64,000 bases of DNA, from the NCBI RefSeq assembly GCF_000423525.1, contig NZ_AUID01000016.1, positions 1 to 64,000 on the forward strand. The letters are read 5' to 3'. The position numbers were made by a program, and so were the translations under genes. Source of the DNA: Proteocatella sphenisci DSM 23131. Its GTDB lineage: Bacteria > Bacillota > Clostridia > Peptostreptococcales > Filifactoraceae. Below are positions 44,993 to 58,343 of this stretch, one piece after another. Under the pieces are notes generated by a model that saw nothing but the letters and a program-made list of their open reading frames with translations, was not told the origin of the DNA and did not search any database. The stretch's first letter is position 1. Each line of letters begins with the position of its first letter.

Positions 44993-45095
44993 ACACAATT
45001 CTCCTTTCGTTGTTAATTCGTTTAATTGAATTTGTTTGTAATTTAGATATACCCTTAAATCACACTAAAACTATACCTGTTTACCTATTTTATAA

Positions 45096-45144
45096 AAAGA
45101 AAGAGCACTTATAACATTATTTCGTTATAAATACTCTTTCTTTT
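45096..45144 (-). terminator. Terminator of apbE and the electron-transfer cluster
   Basis: AAAGAAAGAG and CTCTTTCTTT, with an inner TTATAAC / GTTATAA pair, form a long stem about 16 bases past the apbE stop codon, followed by a T-rich tract on the minus strand. Confidence 0.88.
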
Positions 45145-45159
45145 CTTATTGCTTTTTTC

Positions 45160-46215
45160 CTATTCCTTGATCAAACTTTCAAAATTCTTGCTGTATTTTA
45201 TTGATTTGTCTTTAAATATCCACATGGCTTCTGTATCTTCTATAGTCTCTAGCATTTTATATCCTTCTTCAAAATCCATGCAATAAATGGCAGTGGATAA
45301 GGCATCAGCTAGTCCTGAATCCCTGCATACGACTGTCACCGCTGTAAACTTCTCAGCAGGAAAAAGTGTTTGAGGATTTATTATATGATTGTATCTTTTA
45401 CCGTCCACGCTATAGTATCTTTCATAATCCCCACTTGAAACCATCGATGCATTATCCAGATTAACCAGTTTTAAAATAGGTTCTTCACTTTCACTGTCAG
45501 GATTTTGTATTCCAACACTCCACGGTTTATTGGTTTTTTTATTATTATTTATAGCTCTTACGTTTCCGCCTACACTCAATATTCCAGAATCCATGCCCTT
45601 TTCCATTATTAATTTACTTATCTGCTCTGTTGCATACCCCTTTGCAATAGAACCTACATCTAGACTCATCAATGGGTCACTTAAATAGACTGTTGACTTT
45701 TCAGTATCAATTATAACATTGTTTATATCAGTATGCTTTGCCGCTTCTTGCAAATCTTCAATTGGTGGAAGCTTTGCATTTTCGGGGTCATCTATACCCT
45801 TTGTTCTATATTCATGCCAGATTTCAAGTACAGATCCAAAAGCTACATTAGTTTTTCCATCCGTAATGTCATACATGTTTTTAGAAAAAACCAGCATATC
45901 TATTATTTTTTGATCTACTTTTACAGGTTTAATTCCTGCGTTATCGTTTATCATTTTAATATTGTTTATTCCATCATAATCATTATATATATCGTATAAT
46001 TTATGATATTCACCTAAGCCATCATATATATATTGAGCATATATTTTAAATTCATCTTCGTTTTCAGAATAACCGACTATTTTTGTAAAAGTATCGAAAA
46101 GTTCGATAAATTCAGCTTCATACCTATTTTTATCGTAAATTTCATTATTTTCACACGCAGTCATTCCCAAAAAAACAAATAATAAAGTTATTATCAAAAT
46201 AAGTTTTTTAATCAA
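45160..46215 (-). CDS. apbE: FAD:protein FMN transferase (ApbE/FmnB), lipoprotein
   Basis: The product has 351 residues. A lipobox (FLGMTAC) near residue 20 places it outside the membrane. ApbE features include KTNVAFGSVLEIWHEYR, SLDVGSIAKGYATEQI and GGNVRAI, and a metal/FAD-binding C-terminal region with SADALSTAIY-type block (here GLADALSTAIYCMDFEEG). It attaches FMN covalently to Ser/Thr of secreted proteins. The next gene upstream encodes its likely substrate, a PplA-like lipoprotein. In Listeria the homolog is FmnB. Confidence 0.95.
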   Translation of the reverse strand: MIKKLILIITLLFVFLGMTACENNEIYDKNRYEAEFIELFDTFTKIVGYSENEDEFKIYAQYIYDGLGEYHKLYDIYNDYDGINNIKMINDNAGIKPVKVDQKIIDMLVFSKNMYDITDGKTNVAFGSVLEIWHEYRTKGIDDPENAKLPPIEDLQEAAKHTDINNVIIDTEKSTVYLSDPLMSLDVGSIAKGYATEQISKLIMEKGMDSGILSVGGNVRAINNNKKTNKPWSVGIQNPDSESEEPILKLVNLDNASMVSSGDYERYYSVDGKRYNHIINPQTLFPAEKFTAVTVVCRDSGLADALSTAIYCMDFEEGYKMLETIEDTEAMWIFKDKSIKYSKNFESLIKE

Positions 46216-46234
46216 TGTTTTTACCTCAAAATAT

Positions 46235-46273
46235 AAAAGGTAGTAATACTACTATGTAGCAATACTACCTTTT
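46235..46273 (-). terminator. Hairpin between pplA-like gene and apbE
   Basis: AAAAGGTAGTA and TACTACCTTTT are perfect arms with an AT-rich loop. It lies about 20 bases past the stop codon. It may let the lipoprotein be made in excess over ApbE, with partial readthrough. Confidence 0.8.
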
Positions 46274-46293
46274 GAAATTTAATTTATACTATA

Positions 46294-47337
46294 CTATTTC
46301 GCAGTTGCAAAAGCTTTTGCAACAACTGTCTGGAATTCTGCTATACCAACTGTTACTGAAGCAGTAACGTCAGCATCTGTAGCGTGTCCATCTGCATCAA
46401 CAGCTATACCACTTACTTCTTCAGAAGTTTTTCCTACTACATATTTAGAAAAAGCATCAGCTTGCTCGTTCCACTCTTTACCTATGCTTGATGCGCTCTT
46501 CATTCCATAAGCATCACCTAGTTCATTTTTTGACTGAAGTGCAGCAGTCAAATCTGTAGTTATTTTACCAGTTGCATCAAAATTAATATTTGTTTGTGAT
46601 GCATCAATTAGTGAGCTTGTTATTACGCCATCTTCAGCAAACGTTGAAGCTGTGTAATATGTGTACACCTGAGCCAGACCATCTTTTGATTCTGCAGCAT
46701 CAAAATCTGCTGATTTTTCAATTGTAGTTTCAAGTCCAAGACCCAATTTGTCTGTAGCGCTTGCTCCAATATCTTGAGCATTTGTAACTGCTTTTTCGAT
46801 CGCTTCGATATATGGTCCAACTTTGATTGTAACTGAAGCTGTCATATCTGCATCTGTAAGATGAGTTTCCTCATCAAGAGAGAAAGTTTTTATTTCTTCT
46901 ACAGTCTTGCCTTCTACAAAAGTTTCGAATGCATTAGCTTGCTCTGCCCAGTCTTTACCTATAGTCGAAGCTGCTGCCATTCCATATTCAGTTCCAAGTT
47001 CTTGCTTAGATTTGAATTCCATAGCTTTGTCAGTAGTAAGTTTTCCTTCTTTAGAGAAGTTTACTTTTGTCTGAGCAGTATCGATTTCTGCTTTAAGAAT
47101 TTTTCCGTCTGCATCTACCATTACAGCAACTGCAACAGAATCAACTTGAGCTATTCCATCTTCATCTGCTGCATCTACTGATTTTTCTGCTGATGATATT
47201 ACTGCTAATCCCGTTTTTACAGCGTTTTCTGTTACTGCTGGTGTATCTTCAGTTGTTTCTGCTGGTTTGTCGCTGCAACCCGCAAATGCGAATACAGTTA
47301 GAGACATAATTAAAACCATTGATAAAATTCTTTTCAT
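46294..47337 (-). CDS. pplA: PplA-like FMN-binding electron-transfer lipoprotein
   Basis: The product has 347 residues from the ATG at 47337 (after GGAGG). The lipobox is FAFAGC with Cys21. Residues 42-183 and 198-344 are two homologous repeats, each with SKxELGxxYGM, ASxIGKxWxEQA and a terminal DAD(M/V)TASVT (162-170 and 321-329). This last motif has the spacing of ApbE flavinylation targets (D-x-x-[ST]-x-A-[ST]), so each repeat may carry one covalent FMN. Repeats are about 50 per cent alike. PplA of Listeria is the surface flavoprotein that passes electrons to extracellular acceptors. Confidence 0.85.
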   Translation of the reverse strand: MKRILSMVLIMSLTVFAFAGCSDKPAETTEDTPAVTENAVKTGLAVISSAEKSVDAADEDGIAQVDSVAVAVMVDADGKILKAEIDTAQTKVNFSKEGKLTTDKAMEFKSKQELGTEYGMAAASTIGKDWAEQANAFETFVEGKTVEEIKTFSLDEETHLTDADMTASVTIKVGPYIEAIEKAVTNAQDIGASATDKLGLGLETTIEKSADFDAAESKDGLAQVYTYYTASTFAEDGVITSSLIDASQTNINFDATGKITTDLTAALQSKNELGDAYGMKSASSIGKEWNEQADAFSKYVVGKTSEEVSGIAVDADGHATDADVTASVTVGIAEFQTVVAKAFATAK

Positions 47338-47402
47338 AATTTCCTCCATACAATAATATAAAATTTTATATATATAATCTGGATATCTCCAGTTTATACC
47401 AT

Positions 47403-48311
47403 TTAAATAATACTACTTATAAAAATTAGCGCTGTTATGCTTGCCATTATAATAACATAATTTTTAATTGCTAGAATAAAAGTGATTTCCTTATCCTGAA
47501 CCAGTTTGAATTTGATTATATTTTTTCTTACAAAGTATATAGTAATAAAATGAATCATGCACAGTGGGTGCAATATTTTTAAAACAATCATAATAAAAAC
47601 TGATAAATACGACAAGTAATAAATCCACTCAAACAACACAATCGATTTATCTCCTATAAAATATGGCAGAGTATATCTTTTTACTTTTACATCTTTTTCA
47701 AGATCACATATATTATTTGCCAGCATTATATTAGCTGTGGTGCAAAAAGGTACAATTGAAAACAAAATAAATTTCAGCAATGGAATTACACTGAGATATA
47801 TACTGATAGTCACCATGTTAAAATCAAATTTTAAAAATGTACCTTCTTTTATATTAATGTATATCAATATAAAAGGTATCATGACTCCGTAAAAAAAACC
47901 TGATATTACCTCGCCCAAAGGTAACCTTGATATGGCTGCTGGACCATATGTGTAAAATACTCCACAAATAAAACACAAAGCACCCAGAAAAAAAATCGTA
48001 ATATCTGTCAAGTAAACAAGATACAGTCCAAGTGATGCACTCAAAATAAACATTACATAAATTATCCAAAGTGCAGTTTTTCTTTCAAAACGAAGCATTT
48101 GGCCGTTAGTTTTTGTATCAATATAGTTATTAATAGCTGTAGTCGTCATATCAAATATAAAAGCCGAAGCAATAAACACCGCCGTAACTTTCCAGTTTAT
48201 TTTCTGGTCTACATACTTGAGATATGATAATGTCATTAAAAAAGCAAAAACACTTGTTATCTTAGTCTGTATTTCAACATAATTTAAAAATCTTTTTATC
48301 ATAATAGTCAT
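47403..48311 (-). CDS. dmkA: UbiA/MenA-type prenyltransferase (DmkA-like)
   Basis: The product has 302 residues and about eight membrane helices. The first aspartate-rich region is in NNYIDTKTNG, and the second in NNICDLEKDVKVKRYTLPYFIGDKS. Such enzymes attach a polyprenyl chain to dihydroxynaphthoate to make demethylmenaquinone. In FLEET clusters a dedicated copy makes a separate demethylmenaquinone pool. It starts 2 bases after dmkB ends. The start could also be the ATG 9 bases further in. Confidence 0.88.
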   Translation of the reverse strand: MTIMIKRFLNYVEIQTKITSVFAFLMTLSYLKYVDQKINWKVTAVFIASAFIFDMTTTAINNYIDTKTNGQMLRFERKTALWIIYVMFILSASLGLYLVYLTDITIFFLGALCFICGVFYTYGPAAISRLPLGEVISGFFYGVMIPFILIYINIKEGTFLKFDFNMVTISIYLSVIPLLKFILFSIVPFCTTANIMLANNICDLEKDVKVKRYTLPYFIGDKSIVLFEWIYYLSYLSVFIMIVLKILHPLCMIHFITIYFVRKNIIKFKLVQDKEITFILAIKNYVIIMASITALIFISSII

Positions 48312-48313
48312 CC

Positions 48314-49261
48314 CTATATAAGTCTGTATGATTTGTCTAAAACAAATCTCAGCTTGTTTGCTTTATCTTCTTCAAGATCCAGATTCTCTATTATGTTTAA
48401 GCTTTTTTTATAATATTTTTCTGCTAAAACATGGGTAAACTCTAAACCACCTGATTTTTTTACAGCTGAGTTAATTTCATCTCTGGATAACTTACCTTCC
48501 GATTTTTTTTTGAAAAGATCATCTTTTTTTAGTGCATATATGAGCGGAAGAGTAATTACCCCTTGTTCATAATCTGACTCAACCGGTTTTTTTGCAACAT
48601 CGGTTGTTTCTTCAAAGTCCATACAGTCATCCGTAAGTTGAAACAGCATGCCTATATTTCTTCCCAGTTTTTTATATTTGTTTATTCGCTTCTCGTCGGT
48701 TTCTGAAAGTACAGCTCCTGCATAAAATGATGCTTCAAAAAGCGCTGCTGTTTTTCCAGATATTATTCCGAGATATTTAATAATACTCAAATTCATATTG
48801 TGATTGTTAATGTGTTGATTTAACTCGCCAATACACACTTTTGATACATACTTTGGCATATTCAGTTTTAGATAATCTTCTTTATTTGAAACCGAAGCCG
48901 CAAGTTCAAGAGAAACTGCCAACAGATAATCTCCACATATGACAGCTGTTTTTTTTCCGAATTTTTTCTGTAGAGTTGTTTGGCCTCTTCTCAGATCAGC
49001 ATCATCAATTATATCATCATGCACTAGAGTAGCCAGGTGGAGAATCTCAACGGCCGCAGCAAAATTTACTGCATTTTTGCTAATCATTCCATCTTTGCCT
49101 TGGGCACAAGCTATCAAAGAAAGTGTCCTAATGAATTTTCCTCTTGATATTATCAAATGCTGCGTATATTTTTTTATTATCCTTGGAGAGGATGACAAGG
49201 TTTTGTCTACCTCTAGTTTAACAGCTTCTATAGCCTGATCATATGTCAACATATTAGTCAT
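48314..49261 (-). CDS. dmkB: Polyprenyl diphosphate synthase (DmkB-like)
   Basis: The product has 315 residues. The two aspartate-rich motifs are HDDIIDDADLRRG and LTDDCMDFEE (DDxxD). The enzyme condenses isopentenyl diphosphate units and would supply the prenyl tail to the UbiA-type enzyme next door. Its linkage with ndh2, dmkA and the PplA-like gene marks it as the electron-transfer-specific copy, rather than the general heptaprenyl synthase. Confidence 0.9.
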   Translation of the reverse strand: MTNMLTYDQAIEAVKLEVDKTLSSSPRIIKKYTQHLIISRGKFIRTLSLIACAQGKDGMISKNAVNFAAAVEILHLATLVHDDIIDDADLRRGQTTLQKKFGKKTAVICGDYLLAVSLELAASVSNKEDYLKLNMPKYVSKVCIGELNQHINNHNMNLSIIKYLGIISGKTAALFEASFYAGAVLSETDEKRINKYKKLGRNIGMLFQLTDDCMDFEETTDVAKKPVESDYEQGVITLPLIYALKKDDLFKKKSEGKLSRDEINSAVKKSGGLEFTHVLAEKYYKKSLNIIENLDLEEDKANKLRFVLDKSYRLI

Positions 49262-49278
49262 TTCATTATCCTTAATTT

Positions 49279-51276
49279 TTAATCATTGTATAAATACAGC
49301 TTTTTCACAAATTTTATATTTTTCCATTTTTTCTTTAGCCAAGGTATGAAATAATAATCTAATCCTATAGTTCTTCCTGCCCCTATTAAAACTGCTATAC
49401 CTGCAAATATCATCCAGAAAGTATTTAGATAAAGCCCAGTAGTACAAACGAACATAAACTGGAGTATTATTGAAAGTGCTGCTGCTGGGAAGGTAAGAAG
49501 TCCACCTATCAAAGCAAGTCCAATAAGTATTTCTGCAACAACTATGAATGATTGCATGAATATCTGCATTGAATCACTTGAAAGAATTACTGTGTTTACA
49601 AACCAGTTCATAAGAGGAATATCAAGTTTGAATGCTATATCAGAAAGCCCTGATTCAACAAGTGTTTTTCCTGAAACAAGAATCATATTAAGCAACCCTA
49701 TAAAGTCAAAATTCATTATAACTGTACCTGCATTTGCTACTCCATCTGCTGCACCAGGGGCTGCCGTTGCTGCAGAAACTGCATCTGCAACAGCTCCTGC
49801 TGTCTGATTGACTGCCTCCGAAGATCCTGCATTCAAAACACCGTTAAACCACGCGTTTGCCCCACCAAAGAAGCCTTCAAGTTTTGGAGCACCCAGCCAA
49901 CCTTCAAGAACTTTTTTTACTCCTTCAAAAAGCCATATAAAACCAAGCCATACTCTTATTGGTACCATAAGGAAACTTGGAGTTCTGTTTGAAAAGTGGC
50001 CTCCCACAAAGCTTCTGCAGTTTCTTATTGTAAAAAATTCATGTTTCATATAACTTATAATCTTATTCCAGCCTAAAACCTGTGCAAAATATACAATATT
50101 TATGAAATGTTTGGCAAACATAGCCAGGAATGATGGAAGATTTACTTTTTTGTTAACTCCCCCAACGCTTGCAACTCCATATCTACCACCCACGCAAACC
50201 ATAAATCCATGATTCTTGTGTTTATATTCTTCCATTTCACCATTTCCTGTTATTGCACATGCAAGGTTGTGCGCTGCAGTATGAGAACTTTGCTCAGCAT
50301 TTTCTACAACCTGAGGAACCGGTCTTTCTTCACCTTCACATATGAAAAATATGTTATCTCCTACAACATATACATTTTCATTATCAATAGAACGAAGGTA
50401 TTTGTCTACTTTAACTCTTCCTCTTCCTCCGCCTTCGATTTCTTTAGTAACCGTGTTTGTGATATCAGCCCCTTCAACACCCGCAGCCCATATAACAGTT
50501 CCTGTAATATGCTTTGTTACTTCTTCACCACTTTTAGTAACCACATATCCAGGCCCTACTTCTTGCACAAAATTATTAAGAAGAAGTTCTACTCCCATTT
50601 TATTAAGACGTCTTTCAACTTTTTTAGAAAGATCTTCATCTAAATTCGGTACCGTCCTTGATAACCCATCCGCATTAACGAGTGTCACTAATTCTCTGTC
50701 TATTTCAAATTTTTCACACAGAAAAGGCACATACTCTGCAAGTTCTCCGACCATCTCTACCCCTGTGAATCCAGCGCCTATTACGTGGAAGGTAAGTAGT
50801 CTCTTTTTCTCATCCAGGTTAGTTTCACACGCTGCTTTTCTAAACATTTCATGTATATGATCTCTAAGAATTACTGCATCTTCATAAGACCACAACATAA
50901 AGGCATTTTCTTTTACCCCTTTTATTCCAAAATCGGTTGGTTTTGAACCAGCCGAAATCACAAGATAATCATATTCGTATTTTTGATTATTTCCTATTAC
51001 TATCTTATTATCAAAATCAACAGATTCTATTGTATCAAGGTTTACATCAATATCTCTTCCAGCAAAAACTTTTTTTAGGCTGATTTTGATACTTTCTTCA
51101 TCAACCCGATTTGCCGCAACTTCATGAAGCTCAGTAAGCATAGTATGAAACGGATTTTTGTCAATTATCGTTATACTAATATCATTATGTTTTGCCTTTT
51201 TTAATTTCTTCTCCAGCTTTTTGGCAGTAAGAATACCTGAGTAGCCGGCTCCTACTATTACAATTTTAGATCCCAT
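49279..51276 (-). CDS. ndh2: Type II NADH dehydrogenase with C-terminal membrane domain (Ndh2)
   Basis: The product has 665 residues from the ATG at 51276, which follows AAGGAG by 6 bases. Residues 1-400 are NDH-2: IVGAGYSG for FAD, VIGAGFTGVEMVGELAEYV for NADH. The C-terminal 220 residues hold about four membrane helices (DoxX-like: MVPIRVWLGFIWLFEGVKKVLEG) with an Ala-rich insert (about 520-545). This extended Ndh2 is the form found in flavin-based extracellular electron transfer loci, where it transfers electrons from NADH to demethylmenaquinone. It has a strong promoter at 51329-51357. Confidence 0.93.
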   Translation of the reverse strand: MGSKIVIVGAGYSGILTAKKLEKKLKKAKHNDISITIIDKNPFHTMLTELHEVAANRVDEESIKISLKKVFAGRDIDVNLDTIESVDFDNKIVIGNNQKYEYDYLVISAGSKPTDFGIKGVKENAFMLWSYEDAVILRDHIHEMFRKAACETNLDEKKRLLTFHVIGAGFTGVEMVGELAEYVPFLCEKFEIDRELVTLVNADGLSRTVPNLDEDLSKKVERRLNKMGVELLLNNFVQEVGPGYVVTKSGEEVTKHITGTVIWAAGVEGADITNTVTKEIEGGGRGRVKVDKYLRSIDNENVYVVGDNIFFICEGEERPVPQVVENAEQSSHTAAHNLACAITGNGEMEEYKHKNHGFMVCVGGRYGVASVGGVNKKVNLPSFLAMFAKHFINIVYFAQVLGWNKIISYMKHEFFTIRNCRSFVGGHFSNRTPSFLMVPIRVWLGFIWLFEGVKKVLEGWLGAPKLEGFFGGANAWFNGVLNAGSSEAVNQTAGAVADAVSAATAAPGAADGVANAGTVIMNFDFIGLLNMILVSGKTLVESGLSDIAFKLDIPLMNWFVNTVILSSDSMQIFMQSFIVVAEILIGLALIGGLLTFPAAALSIILQFMFVCTTGLYLNTFWMIFAGIAVLIGAGRTIGLDYYFIPWLKKKWKNIKFVKKLYLYND

Positions 51277-51328
51277 TATAGACTCCTTAATAAATTCAGT
51301 TAGCAAAATATAAATTAGATAAATATAA

Positions 51329-51357
51329 ATAATAAAACATTCTTTCGACATTGTCAA
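51329..51357 (-). promoter_or_regulatory. Promoter of the electron-transfer operon (ndh2)
   Basis: On the minus strand a perfect TTGACA (51357-51352) and TATTAT (51334-51329) are separated by exactly 17 bases, about 53 bases before the ATG. It lies between iclR and ndh2. Confidence 0.8.
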
Positions 51358-51382: not shown

Positions 51383-51401
51383 AAAAAGGGATAATCATCC
51401 C
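51383..51401 (-). terminator. Short terminator of iclR
   Basis: GGGAT-GATT-ATCCC followed by TTTTT on the minus strand. The stem has only five pairs and overlaps the stop codon at 51395, so it may be weak. Confidence 0.5.
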
Positions 51402-52159
51402 TTATAACCTATCTCATATGAAATTTCCCTGGTTTTTATTTTTATCAGTTCAATACATTCTTTAAGTTTTTCTCCAGTTAATCTTGACGATGGTCCCAAT
51501 ATGCTCATACCATATTTAGCTTCTCCGCTATGGTCAAATATTGGAGCAGCAATGCATACTATTCCTTCCATTATCTCTTCGTTATCTATAGCATAACCAT
51601 TCTTTCGTATTTCTTCCAGATCTTTTATAAGTTGTTCTCTATCAGTGACTGTATTTTCCGTTGACTTTTTTATATTTTCCGGAATATAACTTTTGATTTT
51701 GTCTAAATCCATGTGCGCAAGTATAACTCTGCCATCTGCCGTCAGATAAAGTGGATTTCTTGAGCCTATAGTGGCCGAAATTTTGATTGAATCCTCTGGT
51801 TCTGCTTTAAGTATATACACGATTTCTTCACCGTCTGAAATACCAATATGAACTGTCTCTCCAATCGTTCTACTCAGCATACATATAACCGGTTTTGCGA
51901 TGTCACTTATATCTATAGAGCCCAAAACCAAATCTCCATATTTTAACAACTCAAGCCCCAATCTATATTTCTGAGTTTTTTCATCCTGACCAATAAAACC
52001 ATGATATTTAAGTGTGCTCAAAATTCCATGAACAGTACTCTTGTTAATACCAGTTTCATCTGAAATTTCAGCAAGCTTTAATTCTCTACTATTTTTTGAA
52101 AAACAGTCCATAATCGAAATAGCTCTTTCTATAGACTGAATTCTACCTGTACTCACCAT
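51395..52159 (-). CDS. IclR-family transcriptional regulator
   Basis: The product has 254 residues. The winged helix is at 1-65 (SIERAISIMDCF, then LAEISDETGINKSTVHGILSTLKYHGFI). The effector domain follows (KISATIGSRNPLYLTADGRVILAH). The C-terminal SILGPSSRLT block is typical. IclR proteins usually bind small organic acids. It lies just upstream of ndh2 and in the same direction, so it may control either the electron-transfer operon or itself. The ATG at 52159 is chosen; a GTG 12 bases upstream is possible. Confidence 0.92.
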   Translation of the reverse strand: MVSTGRIQSIERAISIMDCFSKNSRELKLAEISDETGINKSTVHGILSTLKYHGFIGQDEKTQKYRLGLELLKYGDLVLGSIDISDIAKPVICMLSRTIGETVHIGISDGEEIVYILKAEPEDSIKISATIGSRNPLYLTADGRVILAHMDLDKIKSYIPENIKKSTENTVTDREQLIKDLEEIRKNGYAIDNEEIMEGIVCIAAPIFDHSGEAKYGMSILGPSSRLTGEKLKECIELIKIKTREISYEIGYKG

Positions 52160-52224
52160 ATAAATAACCACTCACTTTCCCGATTATAATACCACAGAAT
52201 GTTCGATACATCAACAATTTTTTA

Positions 52225-52701
52225 TCAATTTGATTTTGAAAAATATGTCATGCTGCTTTTTTTTAATTCCCTTACGCTGTGAAGTATTTGATAATCCAAG
52301 ATTTCATGTTTTTTAACAATTGCTTCAATAAACGTTTCTATCTCGTATTTATTCCTGCTGTGAAGCATGACGTAGAGATTATACGGCCATATTTCATAGG
52401 GCTTTCTTTCATAGCAGTGACTTGAAAGATGGCTGGCTGATAATTCCATCCCTACCGTTTCAGTAATGACCTCATCTGTTTTAAATACCACCATAGCATT
52501 GTATAAATACCCTGATTTCTGATGTCTCAAAACTGCACCGATTCTTTTCAACTGGTTTGAATCCTTCATTAATTGTAATCTTTCAATGACCTCATCTTCA
52601 GATATTCCAAGTTTTTTTCCCAATTCTTCATACGGATTTTCCTCAAAAGGAATGTTTCCCTGAAGCTCTTTTATCAGTTCTTGGTTGATTTTATCCATCA
52701 T
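52225..52701 (-). CDS. ahbB: Sirohaem decarboxylase subunit B
   Basis: The product has 158 residues from the ATG at 52701 (after GGGAGG); an ATG 3 bases later is equivalent. The Lrp/AsnC-like fold is visible: a helix-turn-helix-like N-terminus and a C-terminal domain with LKRIGAVLRHQKSGYLYNAMVVF and HCYERKPYEIWPYNLY, which are AhbB hallmarks. With AhbA it removes two carboxyl groups from sirohaem to give 12,18-didecarboxysirohaem. It is last in the ahbCDAB operon, one base after ahbA. Confidence 0.9.
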   Translation of the reverse strand: MMDKINQELIKELQGNIPFEENPYEELGKKLGISEDEVIERLQLMKDSNQLKRIGAVLRHQKSGYLYNAMVVFKTDEVITETVGMELSASHLSSHCYERKPYEIWPYNLYVMLHSRNKYEIETFIEAIVKKHEILDYQILHSVRELKKSSMTYFSKSN

Positions 52702-52702
52702 A

Positions 52703-53158
52703 TTAACCGCCTCCCAGTTCAAAAAAAACATTCAATTTGTAATTCTTTAGATTAGGAAATTCGAATATTTGCGTTATTTTAAAACCAGCCTGAAGTCCTT
52801 GAACAAAATTCCTTTTTTCATCAGAATCTTCAGCCGAAAACGTAAACCACATGTTAAGCATGCCCGATCTCTGGTAGTTATGGGTAACCGCTTTAAATGA
52901 ATTTACATACTCAGCCACATTGTCAAAAATATCATCCGGAACCTGAATTCCAAACAATACGCTCGTATATCCCATTCCCGCATTGTTGAAAGTGCCCCCA
53001 ATTCGTCTTATATAACCCTGCTCAAACAGAGCCTTTATTCTTTCAAGTAATTCCGATCTGCTTATTCCAAGCTGTAAGGCCAAAACTCCGTATGGATTTT
53101 TCTCCAGAGGAATCCCTTTTTGAAAAAGGTTGATGAGTTTTATATCTGTAGCATCCAT
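52703..53158 (-). CDS. ahbA: Sirohaem decarboxylase subunit A
   Basis: The product has 151 residues with the same Lrp-like fold as AhbB. It carries RRIGGTFNNAGMGYTSVLFGIQV and HNYQRSGMLNMWFTFSA, the AhbA form of the signature. The N-terminal helix-turn-helix remnant (VLALQLGISRSELLERI) is present but probably no longer binds DNA. It lies 2 bases after ahbD. Confidence 0.9.
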   Translation of the reverse strand: MDATDIKLINLFQKGIPLEKNPYGVLALQLGISRSELLERIKALFEQGYIRRIGGTFNNAGMGYTSVLFGIQVPDDIFDNVAEYVNSFKAVTHNYQRSGMLNMWFTFSAEDSDEKRNFVQGLQAGFKITQIFEFPNLKNYKLNVFFELGGG

Positions 53159-53160
53159 TT

Positions 53161-54150
53161 TTACCCCCTTTTAAAGCACCATGGTTCTTCTGCAAGATAG
53201 TTCCCTTTGTAATAATAAGCTCTTGCTCTGCAGCCTCCGCATATATCTGCGTATTCACAGCTTCCACATTCACCTTCATAATTTTTAATGTCACGCAGCT
53301 TCAAAAATACCGGACTTGATTTCCAGATCTTGTCGAAAGCTTCTTCTCTGACATTTCCAGCCCCCACAGGGAGATAAGGGCACACGTTAACCTGGCCTTC
53401 AGGCAGTATACAGCAGTAAGCCGTGCCTGCAAGGCAACCCCTTGTAAATCTCTGAGAAAGTCCCATTTCATGTGCCATAGGCATAAACTGGGGAGCGCAT
53501 GTAGGTTTTAGTTCAAGCGAGGTAGTTCCTTGAAGCTCTAAAACGCTTCGAATCATAGAAAAATAAGCTACTTCCCTGAGGCTGTCTTCTTCCATAGAAA
53601 GGGCTCTTCCGGTTGGTACCAGAAAGAACGGATGTATTGCATGAACTCTTTTTTTTTCATAGTAAGATACCAGATTTGCAAACTCTTCCTGGTTTTTTTC
53701 TGTCACGGTCATATTTATCTGAACTCTTAGACCAGCTGTAAGTGCATTTTCTATTCCTTCTTGAGCTTTATCAAATGCCCCAACTTGACCTCTAAATTCG
53801 TCATGATACTTCTTATCAAGACTGTCTAAGCTTATTGCGACGCCTTTAAGACCATTCTTAAATAATTCTGCGGCCACATCCTTACTCAATAGAGTTCCAT
53901 TGCTTCCCATGGCCGGGATTAGTCCTTCTTGCCTTGCAGCTGCAATCATTTCGAAAATATCATCTCTAAGCAGGGGCTCCCCTCCGCTTAATATGAGCAT
54001 TCGAAAACCCGCTTTTTTTATTTCTGTAATCAGTTTTCTGCCTTCTTCAGTTGTCAGCTCATTGCTTGTATCTACGTCTATTCCAGATTCTCTGTAGCAG
54101 TGGACACAGTTTAGATTACATTTTTTTGTTGTATTCCACGATATCAGCAT
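53161..54150 (-). CDS. ahbD: Radical SAM haem synthase AhbD
   Basis: The product has 329 residues. The radical SAM cluster is CNLNCVHC at residues 12-19 (KCNLNCVHCYRESG). The opening LISWNTTKKCN is the typical AhbD start. A C-terminal SPASM/twitch region carries more cysteines (CPYLP, CGSCEYADICGGCRARAYYYKG and WC). AhbD oxidatively decarboxylates two propionates of iron-coproporphyrin III to vinyls, making haem b. It lies 8 bases after ahbC. Confidence 0.9.
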   Translation of the reverse strand: MLISWNTTKKCNLNCVHCYRESGIDVDTSNELTTEEGRKLITEIKKAGFRMLILSGGEPLLRDDIFEMIAAARQEGLIPAMGSNGTLLSKDVAAELFKNGLKGVAISLDSLDKKYHDEFRGQVGAFDKAQEGIENALTAGLRVQINMTVTEKNQEEFANLVSYYEKKRVHAIHPFFLVPTGRALSMEEDSLREVAYFSMIRSVLELQGTTSLELKPTCAPQFMPMAHEMGLSQRFTRGCLAGTAYCCILPEGQVNVCPYLPVGAGNVREEAFDKIWKSSPVFLKLRDIKNYEGECGSCEYADICGGCRARAYYYKGNYLAEEPWCFKRG

Positions 54151-54158
54151 ATATCCTC

Positions 54159-55328
54159 CTAAACCCCGATTTCTTCATCGGTAAGATAACAGGCCGGATC
54201 AGCAGCCCAAAAATCACCTGTACTCTGGGCTCTTGCCCTAAAATTACCATTGCACTGATTAAGCCATCTGCAGGAAGCACACCTGCCCTTTAAATGTTTT
54301 TTCCTGTCTCTTATCATCTCAAGAAACAAATTTCCAGAACCATCCCATATATCTGCAAAACTCATGTTTCTTATATTGCCAAGAGATATATCCCTCGTAA
54401 ATTGGTCTATATATACATTTCCCTCCCAGTCAACCGAGGATATCGCCATACCTGAACGATTTCCTCCATTGGTGGTTAAAAGGCTCAGTATTTTTTCAGC
54501 TCTTTTCTTGTCTTGTTTCTTCATGTATTCGTAAAGATATATACCATCGCAGTGATTATCTACGGTAAGTATCTCTGTTTCTATTCCCCGACTGTGAAAT
54601 TCCAGCGTTTTTTCTATTATAAAATCAATAGCTTTTCTAGTTTCATCATGTGTCAAATCCTCATCTGTAATATTTGAGCCTCTTCCCGAATATACAAGGT
54701 GATAAAAGCAGACTCTTTGAATTTTTTCTTTTTCAATGAGATCAAATATCGCAGGAAGTTCTTTATAGTTAGCTCTATTGAGTGTAAGTCTTAAACCGGT
54801 CTTTTGTGCTACTTCACGGCAGTTGTGAAATCCCTCCATTGCTTTTACATAAGCACCAGAAACCCCTCTGAACAAATCATTGACATCCTTTAGACCGTCA
54901 AGACTTATGCCTGCATAAGAAATCCCAAGTTTTTTTATCATTTCAGCTTTCTGTTTGTCAATTAAAGTGCCATTAGTAGATATAACCATTCGAAGTCCAA
55001 TTTTGTTCCCATATTCAAAAAGATCAAAAACATCTCTCCTCATCAGTGGCTCTCCACCAGAAAACAGAAGTGCGGGAACCTTGTATGAAACCAGAGTATC
55101 CATGAAAGCCATGGCTTCTTGAGTAGAAAGTTCTCCCGAATCATATGTATTTACAGCCTCTGCATAGCAGTGCCTGCAGTTCAGATTACAGGTACGGGTG
55201 CAGTTCCATACGACAATAGGGCCTTTATCTGTAGTTGTTCCTCTCGTGCTTATCTTGGCATCCTTATTATATCTGAGACTGTCTCCAAAATTTTGCTGAT
55301 CCAAAAGCAATTTTGAAAAACTAATCAT
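54159..55328 (-). CDS. ahbC: Radical SAM didecarboxysirohaem deacetylase AhbC
   Basis: The product has 389 residues. The N-terminal 40 residues precede [20 protein letters not shown], the AhbC radical SAM motif. A GGEP segment ([11 protein letters not shown]) follows. The C-terminal cysteines ([18 protein letters not shown] ... C) bind auxiliary clusters. AhbC removes two acetate side chains from didecarboxysirohaem to give iron-coproporphyrin III. It is the first gene of the operon, with a promoter at 55360-55388. Confidence 0.9.
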
Positions 55329-55935: not shown

Positions 55936-56556
55936 TTACCTGATATATTTATATCTGAGTTCAATTCCTTTTCCTTCTACACTAAGATCTGCATAGGGAT
56001 TATAATCTGTATTCTTTACAACCTTGTAGAGATTATACAGCTGAGGAAGGAATTCACCCCAGTTGCCAACTTCTTCGGCGCAATGTTCTGCCCATACCAG
56101 GCCTTCCTCATGAGTTTCCTTCTTCCTTGTCCCGATTGCCGAGGATTTGCCAGTTACGCCAAAATCCGTCTTTTCCCACTGATGTATCCTGTATCCCATT
56201 GGAATCCCTGCTTCCAGGCTTTCCGGGCCAAATCCCAGGCCTGCGACCACCACACAGTGTTCATATATTATATAATCCTTTATCTCAGGAGCAATCGTAG
56301 CCAGATCCTCAAATCGTATATATAGATTCTGCCTTGTACCATCATTCCATGTCTGCGGTGCTATATGAACGGATCCAACAGGATTTCCGTGCTTTGGTGC
56401 AATAGCCCACTGCAGAGGCTCATGCTGCTCGGGATGCCAGAGTATGAATCCCTTCTCCATATTGCTCCAGAACCAGTCGATCATTCTTGGAGTTACTCCC
56501 TCGTGACTCCATTCAAGATGCGTTCCCATATTATCCTGCGTTACTTTCATTTCCAT
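55936..56556 (-). CDS. DAPG/phloretin-hydrolase-like protein
   Basis: The product has 206 residues. VTPRMIDWFWSNMEKGFILWHPEQHEPLQWA (21-51) and the later IIYEHCVVVAGLGFGPESLEAGIP match the DAPG-hydrolase (PhlG/Phy) family, which cleaves C-C bonds next to phloroglucinol rings (2,4-diacetylphloroglucinol, phloretin) with a metal. Likely ligands are H41, H45, E99, H125, H158 and E161 or E162. At 206 residues it is shorter than PhlG (about 290) and Phy (about 270). The true substrate is unknown. It is the last gene of the sigma-54-controlled operon, 56 bases after the flavoprotein gene, with GGAGGAA before the ATG. Confidence 0.8.
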   Translation of the reverse strand: MEMKVTQDNMGTHLEWSHEGVTPRMIDWFWSNMEKGFILWHPEQHEPLQWAIAPKHGNPVGSVHIAPQTWNDGTRQNLYIRFEDLATIAPEIKDYIIYEHCVVVAGLGFGPESLEAGIPMGYRIHQWEKTDFGVTGKSSAIGTRKKETHEEGLVWAEHCAEEVGNWGEFLPQLYNLYKVVKNTDYNPYADLSVEGKGIELRYKYIR

Positions 56557-56612: not shown

Positions 56613-58343
56613 CTAAGGCCTGTATGTATATCTCTTTATCGGTACCGGTATTTCTGAAAGCACCATATTCCCATTGTTATTCGATATCTCAATCCACTTG
56701 AGATAGTTTTTGTCATCCCTTTCCTTGTAGTCTTCTCTAAGATGCCATCCCCTGCTTTCTTTTCTTTCGATCGAAGCTCTGAAGAACATTTCTGAGCACA
56801 GTATCGTACTTCTGCATTCATTTACAGCATTCAGTTCATGTGGATCAACTGCTCTCAATCTTGTAATATCCTCTTTTATTTCAAGAATCTTTCTGAGCGC
56901 CTCCTGCAGCCTTTCTTCACTTTTATATCCGCTGTATTCTATTGGTTGCATTACCTGCTTTATTCTCATCATATACTCTGAAGGCGAAATGCTTCCGTCA
57001 GACGTGAGAGGAGAGAATATAGTTTTTCTTATTTGCTCTATATCTTTTTCATCTATGCTTCCAAGGTCTGATCCCTTTGCATATTCCGAAGCTGAGGCTG
57101 CTGCCACTGTCGCCGTAAATACAGCATGCATAAGCCCAGAGCCTCTGTTTCTGCCAGGCGGAGTAGGAACCGCTCCTGACCACGAGCTTCCATTTGCGCA
57201 GATATCACCTGCTGCATAAAGCCCTTCTATGCTTGTTGCCATTTCATGGTCTGCATACAGAGGACTGCATTCACCTATAAGTCCGGGAACGGTCTCCTTG
57301 AGCGGATTATCATCCATGTAGCTTTCAAGGCGGTTCTTATAGTACAGCCTGTTCCAGAACTTCTGAGCTACCGGTCTATAGAACGGAGGATCGGCATCTC
57401 CGCCATAGCAGCAGAGATTTCTGCCTATAAAGGATCCTGGGAATCCATTCTTTGATGTATCCTCATATATAGGTCCTTTGCCCGCCTTTACATCCATGTA
57501 CATAAGCACTGACTGCATGCCTCCAAGATCAACTCCACCCACAACAGTCTTGAGGCTTTCATCCATGTCAGCTCTTTCTGTACACAGTTCTCCATCTGCA
57601 TTTACCAGAACATCCTCAGCTCCATATGCTACAGTCCTGCTCGAGAGCGTCATCATGTTAACAAAGCTTCCAAATTCTGCATTTCGCATTCTTGCTCCCG
57701 CTCTGTATGCTGCAGCTATTCCATCACCTTTTCCGCTGCTCCACATATTCATTACACTGAAATTCTGATCTCCCGATGCAAGGATTACCGACTTTGCCCT
57801 GAATATAATAAGTTCTCCGCTTATAAGGTCTATGCCTGCAGCTCCAGCGATTCGATTGCTGTCCTTAAGCAGCTCCATCACTGAAATCTTGCTGCAGGAT
57901 TCTACTCCGAGTTTTTTGGCATGCTTTGCCATATGTATCATCATGTCCAGATCCAGAATGCACATTTTCCATGGAATTACTGGATGCGAATTCTGAGCAT
58001 GCTCCATGTCCACCGTAAATCTTACTCCCCATGATTCCCATCTTCTTATTGTCTTTACAGTAGAATTGGCATATTTTCTGAGCATATCCTGATCATTCAG
58101 ATAATCTCCAAGATTTCTGCTGTGATACTCTACATACTTTTCTTCTTCGCCTTCCGGAATAAAAGCCACATGCCCTCCGCCTTTGTTTGCCTTGCCTGCA
58201 TATCCCGCAAAAGCCTTATCAACTGTCATTACCTTGAGATCAGGGTTTTCTTCCTTAACAGATATCGCTGCTGAAAGCCCGGCAATACCATGTCCTATTA
58301 CAAGAACGTCCGCTTCCAGAACCTTTCCATAATTTCCCAACAT
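56613..58343 (-). CDS. AprA/FrdA-like FAD-dependent oxidoreductase
   Basis: The product has 576 residues. The N-terminus has the dinucleotide-binding motif VIGHGIAGLSAAISV. Further flavoprotein landmarks are KGGGHVAFIPEG, SVILASGDQNF, EGLYAAGDICANGSSWSG and a C-terminal helical domain ending with ESRGWHLREDY, the family pattern of fumarate reductase and adenylylsulfate reductase alpha subunits. FrdA-type catalytic residues cannot be confirmed by eye, so fumarate or APS is not implied. The partner is the 4Fe-4S protein 14 bases upstream, giving an AprBA-like pair. It may reduce an unsaturated or oxidised aromatic-derived substrate. Confidence 0.85.
   Translation of the reverse strand: MLGNYGKVLEADVLVIGHGIAGLSAAISVKEENPDLKVMTVDKAFAGYAGKANKGGGHVAFIPEGEEEKYVEYHSRNLGDYLNDQDMLRKYANSTVKTIRRWESWGVRFTVDMEHAQNSHPVIPWKMCILDLDMMIHMAKHAKKLGVESCSKISVMELLKDSNRIAGAAGIDLISGELIIFRAKSVILASGDQNFSVMNMWSSGKGDGIAAAYRAGARMRNAEFGSFVNMMTLSSRTVAYGAEDVLVNADGELCTERADMDESLKTVVGGVDLGGMQSVLMYMDVKAGKGPIYEDTSKNGFPGSFIGRNLCCYGGDADPPFYRPVAQKFWNRLYYKNRLESYMDDNPLKETVPGLIGECSPLYADHEMATSIEGLYAAGDICANGSSWSGAVPTPPGRNRGSGLMHAVFTATVAAASASEYAKGSDLGSIDEKDIEQIRKTIFSPLTSDGSISPSEYMMRIKQVMQPIEYSGYKSEERLQEALRKILEIKEDITRLRAVDPHELNAVNECRSTILCSEMFFRASIERKESRGWHLREDYKERDDKNYLKWIEISNNNGNMVLSEIPVPIKRYTYRP

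Follow-up and report, generated by a model that had tools for sequence, protein, structure and literature searches.

A probable FLEET-type operon of Proteocatella sphenisci with a non-classical lipoprotein site and a separate clade of ApbE

Introduction

Can a clostridium send electrons from NADH out of the cell with a compact set of five genes, when neither the classical flavinylation signal nor a pathway for the quinone head group is found? This question is raised by positions 45,160 to 51,357 of a 64,000-nucleotide stretch (hereafter the window) of Proteocatella sphenisci DSM 23131 (RefSeq assembly GCF_000423525.1, contig NZ_AUID01000016.1, our contig C15), which belongs to a 2.41-Mb draft genome in 45 contigs, 98.7% complete. 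Here, genes for a type II NADH dehydrogenase (ndh2), a polyprenyl diphosphate synthase, a UbiA-family prenyltransferase, a PplA-type lipoprotein and the flavin transferase ApbE follow one another. The original prediction, made from the sequence alone, had recognised the flavin-based extracellular electron transfer (FLEET) set known from Listeria, in a reduced or split form. The follow-up analysis indicates that the cluster is quite probably a clostridial operon of FLEET type, but of a variant subtype. The FLEET identity is supported by gene content, by conserved order and by an ApbE that resembles FmnB and has kept its active site intact; the equation with Listeria fails for the lipoprotein, where SGAT sites are absent and a conserved SSVT-type site is found instead.

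Results and Discussion

Gene content and conservation of the cluster

The five genes all lie on the minus strand, in one direction, as originally placed. The first, ndh2 (49,279..51,276), encodes a protein of 665 amino acids (Pyr_redox_2, E 6e-35) with a hydrophobic C-terminal extension, its hydrophobic segments lying near residues 444, 525, 586 and 624. It is followed by a polyprenyl diphosphate synthase with a DmkB-like role (48,314..49,261, 315 amino acids; polyprenyl_synt, E 3.5e-57), whose best NCBIfam match is of HepT type and below the cut-off, and by a UbiA-family prenyltransferase with a DmkA-like role (47,403..48,311, 302 amino acids; UbiA, E 2.4e-16). Next come the PplA-type lipoprotein (46,294..47,349), assigned on its repeats and motif conservation, with a signal peptide, the lipobox FAGC and two FMN-bind-like repeats, and apbE (45,160..46,215; ApbE, E 3.6e-66), a FAD (flavin adenine dinucleotide):protein FMN (flavin mononucleotide) transferase with a lipoprotein-type signal.

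Scanning named genomes with the lipoprotein alignment gave 545 related stretches; the best 80, together with 20 from the organism's own order, made up the 100 pplA loci examined. Identical genes in identical order were found in a locus of the same genus (L032) and in one of another genus of the same family (L034), while the more distant L033 reads ndh2-synthase-ubiA-eetA-eetB-pplA-apbE. All seven genes, eetAB included, were present at 25 of the 100 loci and the five without eetAB at 6, whereas pplA and apbE stood alone in view at 26, in some cases owing to contig ends. Because the five-gene order recurs in L032 and L034, and with eetAB inserted in many distant genomes, the arrangement is not due to chance: this is an established module of clostridia, represented in the window by its eetAB-less version.

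The absence of EetA and EetB from the window, as first reported, was confirmed among the open reading frames examined (42,000-63,659). The whole-genome search proposed at the time located the pair on contig C16, where EetB (PF07456, 143 bits, the only EetB match) adjoins EetA (PF07009, 101 bits), next to genes whose sequences resemble iscR, iscS and iscU. A loss of EetAB was thus rejected, and of the two forms envisaged, reduced or split, the second is the one that stands. EetB was indeed found once per genome in all 14 genomes searched, this one included. In Listeria, EetB together with FmnA exports FAD for flavinylation, EetA being dispensable (PMC9973259). As to flavin supply, a possible link is offered by the S component of an energy-coupling factor (ECF) riboflavin transporter (PF07155 at 11,211-11,711 of L087), found near pplA in that locus and in nine others, all Sedimentibacter-like.

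The Listeria monocytogenes FLEET locus (ndh2, dmkA, dmkB, pplA, fmnB, eetA, eetB, fmnA) likewise clusters Ndh2, the synthase, a prenyltransferase for 1,4-dihydroxy-2-naphthoate (DHNA), a two-site lipoprotein and ApbE, with EetAB in the genome; here, by contrast, eetAB is unlinked and ApbE is of another clade. Flavinylation-based Fe(III) reduction has also been proposed in the NosR-ApbE model of Clostridium, which involves NosR-type membrane FMN-bind proteins rather than the Ndh2-UbiA-PplA set described here (PMC13134045).

The lipoprotein and its putative flavinylation sites

The lipoprotein consists of two repeats of about 159 residues, with predicted FMN sites at T174 (DMTASVT) and T333 (DVTASVT), 159 residues apart in the 351-residue numbering. 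Among some 98 homologues, the consensus at both sites is D/E-L-x-[S/A]-S-V-T; the site threonine is conserved in 95/97 and 93/97 sequences, and the preceding valine in 94/97 and 95/97. None of these homologues has GA at the predicted sites, so that the canonical Dxx[S/T]GA[S/T] signal does not occur. PplA orthologues of Listeria, Enterococcus and Lactobacillus, on the other hand, are reported to have SGAT or TGAT sites, those of Listeria being SGAT (PMC7074142). According to published descriptions, FMN is bound to T143 and T265 of Listeria PplA, a spacing of 122 residues as against 159 here (PMC8906456).

Judging from its sequence profile, the lipoprotein is homologous to the FMN-bind fold. 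The decisive evidence is that the profile of the second repeat, compared with all Protein Data Bank (PDB) sequences, matched 2kzx (E 7e-5), with DAISGAT aligned under the SSVT site. An AlphaFold2 model built with 15 sequences reached a pLDDT of 89.9. A PDB search with the single sequence gave no match, and a Foldseek search of the PDB with the model gave no significant one, with IscU-like rows on top. Each domain is predicted to carry FMN on one threonine. In a recent report, FMN-bind2 proteins are described as having paired FMN-bind domains of about 160 residues with double flavinylation predicted (mSystems 2024, PMC11334425), a type that the two repeats found here fit; in the present family, the site is of a conserved SSVT type and is found in FLEET clusters.

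ApbE clade and site-enzyme pairing

The ApbE of the window aligned with Listeria FmnB (7esa, E 2e-36), and the equivalents of S257, E261, R262, H273 and D301 (FmnB residues, PMC8906456) are conserved, as is SGxYER. It differs at one position: Leu284 replaces the glycine that follows HxxxPxT, seven residues past the catalytic histidine, where HxxxPxTG is the sequence in FmnB and in the other aligned ApbEs of known structure. A residue other than glycine was found in all 87 ApbEs of the group, comprising that of the window and 86 homologues from pplA loci (Leu in 81, Met in 3, His in 2 and Tyr in 1), whereas in an initial set of 29 ApbEs, drawn from other genomes or present as second copies, 28 had glycine, the exception being a FLEET ApbE. 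After the addition of further genomes, the tree showed a single, fully supported split (support 1.0) between Gly-type sequences (48 distinct) and non-Gly ones (87 distinct), with FmnB outside the non-Gly clade.

Does the enzyme match the site? One further genome (G130) bears on this point. It harbors an orphan pplA-type gene (9,239-10,294 of L050) with the sites DLITSAT and DLVTSAT, and its only detected ApbE is of Gly type; there, as far as the sequences tell, the Gly-type partner goes with alanine instead of valine, as in the classical signal. However, since the non-Gly ApbEs form one clade and are not phylogenetically independent, the count of 87 versus 48 amounts essentially to one event plus the G130 case, and the pairing of ApbE residue and site is a hypothesis built on one clade and one exception. 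Strict specificity is moreover disfavoured by P. sphenisci itself and by genome G144, in which only Leu-type ApbE was shown, yet RnfG has SGAT sites; the Leu-type enzyme therefore probably handles both site types. It is conceivable, although we lean slightly against it, that these features define a separate clostridial FLEET branch with an imported head group, in which the non-Gly ApbE clade and the D/E-L-x-S-S-V-T site are co-adapted, a Gly-type enzyme modifying this site poorly and a Leu-type enzyme also serving SGAT sites such as that of RnfG.

The rnf operon of P. sphenisci, with its SGAT-bearing RnfG, lies on contig C1. ApbE was detected once in this genome, so that FLEET and Rnf have no other detected flavin transferase than the operon enzyme. 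In Anaerocolumna sp. MB42-C2 (L148), the FLEET genes are directly followed by rnf genes.

Several observations weigh against a functional FLEET operon. The lipoprotein does not match Pfam FMN_bind (PF04205), and only one of 15 relatives does (E 0.0036); comparison with five RnfG sequences by hhalign was not significant. The structural second look, topped by 3o6u (Z 5.8), described as a flavinylated FMN-bind1 protein (PMC11334425), and 2kzx (Z 5.5), is weak alone, and a Z below 8 can reflect a common arrangement. In Klebsiella, a single G-to-A or A-to-V change in the site lowered flavinylation to about 50% (PMC12052999), while the natural site studied here combines both changes. The main client of ApbE may also be another protein, since the genome encodes Rnf with an SGAT-site RnfG. 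In addition, with no head-group pathway found, the quinone step hinges on uptake, and the support as a whole is computational, not experimental.

Taken to its end, the non-canonical site, the Pfam failure and the single ApbE shared with Rnf could mean that the lipoprotein is an FMN-bind protein that has degenerated and lost its flavinylation, with ApbE kept for Rnf and the operon reduced to quinone-linked NADH oxidation. We regard this as very doubtful: decay would not leave threonine and valine in place at the two sites of 93-98% of the homologues, apbE stays beside pplA in most loci, and many genomes that have a second, Gly-type ApbE elsewhere still keep an operon ApbE of the non-Gly clade. 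A flavinylated lipoprotein in a working FLEET operon is thus the reading retained below.

Quinone supply

The prenyltransferase most resembles 1,4-dihydroxy-2-naphthoate polyprenyltransferase (221 bits to PRK13387/PRK06080, whose cut-offs it does not reach), and the genome has no second UbiA of its type. The genes that would make its substrate were searched for with profiles whose positive controls responded as expected, and the absences reported here hold within the sensitivity of these searches, for genomes that are complete to different degrees (two MenB-tested relatives only to 70-72%). MenB was above cut-off in none of 14 genomes, P. sphenisci included, and MenD in none of 21 genomes carrying this pplA family; MqnA/D was not found at real-enzyme strength in 18 genomes, where the best matches reached about 33-36 bits. 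Two candidates were rejected: a MenB match of 143 bits (cut-off 342.7), which sits in a thiolase/acyl-CoA dehydrogenase cluster and matches ECH_1, and a PF02621 match of 33 bits to a P. sphenisci protein that is an ATP-binding cassette (ABC) substrate-binding protein beside ABC genes. Cytochrome bd subunit I (CydA) was likewise found in none of 22 genomes, and bd oxidase is therefore not the quinol sink.

With a DHNA-prenyltransferase-like UbiA and no head-group pathway found, the simplest inference is that DHNA or a precursor like it is taken up. Listeria has its own DHNA pathway, which was not found in the organism studied here. Lactiplantibacillus plantarum lacks the upstream pathway but has genes for DHNA prenylation, and performs FLEET-type extracellular electron transfer with imported DHNA, on which it depends (PMC9888254, PMC10746273). 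By analogy, the head group is probably imported here too, and the missing pathway would argue for auxotrophy rather than against function; beside L. plantarum, the head-group genes went undetected in all the clostridial genomes tested, isolates included. The absence of upstream quinone genes, which the original prediction had named as grounds for refutation, was indeed observed, but given the L. plantarum precedent it is not fatal. Likewise, its proposal that NADH electrons leave through demethylmenaquinone keeps its value conditionally, provided that DHNA or a similar compound is supplied from outside.

Alternatively, the head group might be self-made by an undescribed route, without quinone auxotrophy, or UbiA might prenylate another aromatic acid. 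Its score below the DHNA-prenyltransferase cut-offs would suit this view, as would three related loci with extra genes for UbiD, another UbiA and an ABC importer, UbiX having been called in two of them. We nevertheless hold it to be improbable, in view of the weak or missing MenB, MenD and MqnA/D matches against sound positive controls, and of the quinone auxotrophy documented for FLEET in L. plantarum (PMC10746273); import of the head group is preferred.

The additional genes of these loci (L114, L118 and L120), which include a substrate-binding protein, stand right after apbE, in genomes without MenD or MqnA/D, and are present in part in L121; UbiX was called in L118 and L120, and L114 has an opposite-strand open reading frame at that place. 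This module is a candidate for quinone-precursor salvage. At L093, L087, L120 and L121, ndh2, the synthase, pplA and apbE occur without a DHNA-type UbiA between them.

Proposed mechanism and electron acceptor

From a mechanistic point of view, Ndh2 would oxidize NADH and reduce a membrane naphthoquinone, for which the polyprenyl synthase and UbiA would prenylate a DHNA-like head group probably taken up from the surroundings. The reduced quinone would pass electrons to the surface lipoprotein with its two FMN-bind domains, which may in turn reduce ferric iron, electrodes, free flavins or extracellular reductases. FMN would be coupled to one threonine per domain by ApbE, with FAD that the unlinked EetAB would bring out of the cell; the sequence recognised in this lineage would be D/E-L-x-[S/A]-S-V-T and not DxxSGAT, with an ApbE from the matching clade.

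The module could also work with an acceptor other than a metal or an electrode, feeding organic acceptors or flavinylated reductases outside the cell, or could take electrons inward. The same chain powers fumarate reduction in Listeria (PMC9094743), and L. plantarum is reported to take up cathode electrons (PMC10701730). The P. sphenisci genome itself encodes an FMN_bind and FAD_binding_2 protein (contig C10; 7,478-9,190 of L072), although it lacks an obvious signal peptide. No acceptor enzyme is, however, conserved beside the clostridial cluster, and we judge this option unlikely, while giving it some weight; outward transfer through the lipoprotein remains our preferred reading.

Transcription signals and neighboring genes

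Gaps within the operon are small (17, 2, 53 and 78 bases), in agreement with the 2-120 bases first given, except that the upper value corresponds to the gap of about 118 bases outside it, between an IclR-family regulator gene and ndh2. The ndh2 start initially set at 51,357 was corrected, the TTG there belonging to a -35 hexamer; the gene begins at ATG 51,276, with AAGGAG upstream. The lipoprotein gene most likely starts at ATG 47,337, behind GGAGGA. The single strong promoter announced for the cluster corresponds to a sigma-70-like sequence (TTGACA-17-TATTAT, 51,329..51,357, minus strand; 11/12 matches), 53 bases before ndh2, but it is plausible rather than proven, since the scan returned 42 sites versus 35 +/- 6 in shuffled sequences. 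A hairpin between pplA and apbE (46,232..46,273, minus strand; fold z-score -4.15) is a possible attenuator, which would lower apbE relative to pplA, and a long terminator-like hairpin with a U tract after apbE (45,094..45,145, minus strand; z-score -8.46) is the probable operon terminator. The IclR-family protein encoded just upstream (51,395..52,171, minus strand; IclR_C, E 4e-51) is a candidate regulator of the operon, and an IclR gene lies near ten related loci.

Further upstream, also on the minus strand, 52,225-55,328 holds ahbA/ahbB siroheme decarboxylase genes and genes for two radical SAM proteins (NirJ1/AhbC-like and NirJ2/AhbD-like), a siroheme-to-haem route, yet cytochrome bd went undetected in the genome; these genes are absent from the same place in L032. 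Two other minus-strand genes, one whose product weakly matches DAPG hydrolase (55,936-56,556) and one for a fumarate-reductase/AprA-like flavoprotein (56,613-58,343), have look-alikes adjoining the IclR gene in L032.

Conclusion

What is new here is the subtype: the lipoprotein is Pfam-silent and bears a conserved non-classical site, ApbE belongs to a matching clade, and head-group synthesis is apparently lacking across the lineage. We found no statement of these points in the literature searched, which did not include the original FLEET paper (Nature 2018), where a prior mention is possible. Flavinylation surveys take Pfam FMN_bind and the [S/T]GA[S/T] signal as their markers, and the lipoprotein, with its hundreds of clostridial relatives, shows neither, so that surveys built only on these two would miss this substrate. 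If true, the pairing of site and ApbE would provide a natural handle on ApbE target choice, useful for flavin-tagging. Finally, the lineage-wide lack of head-group genes, if it holds, would mean that electron export by these fermenters depends on their neighbors, as a form of cross-feeding.

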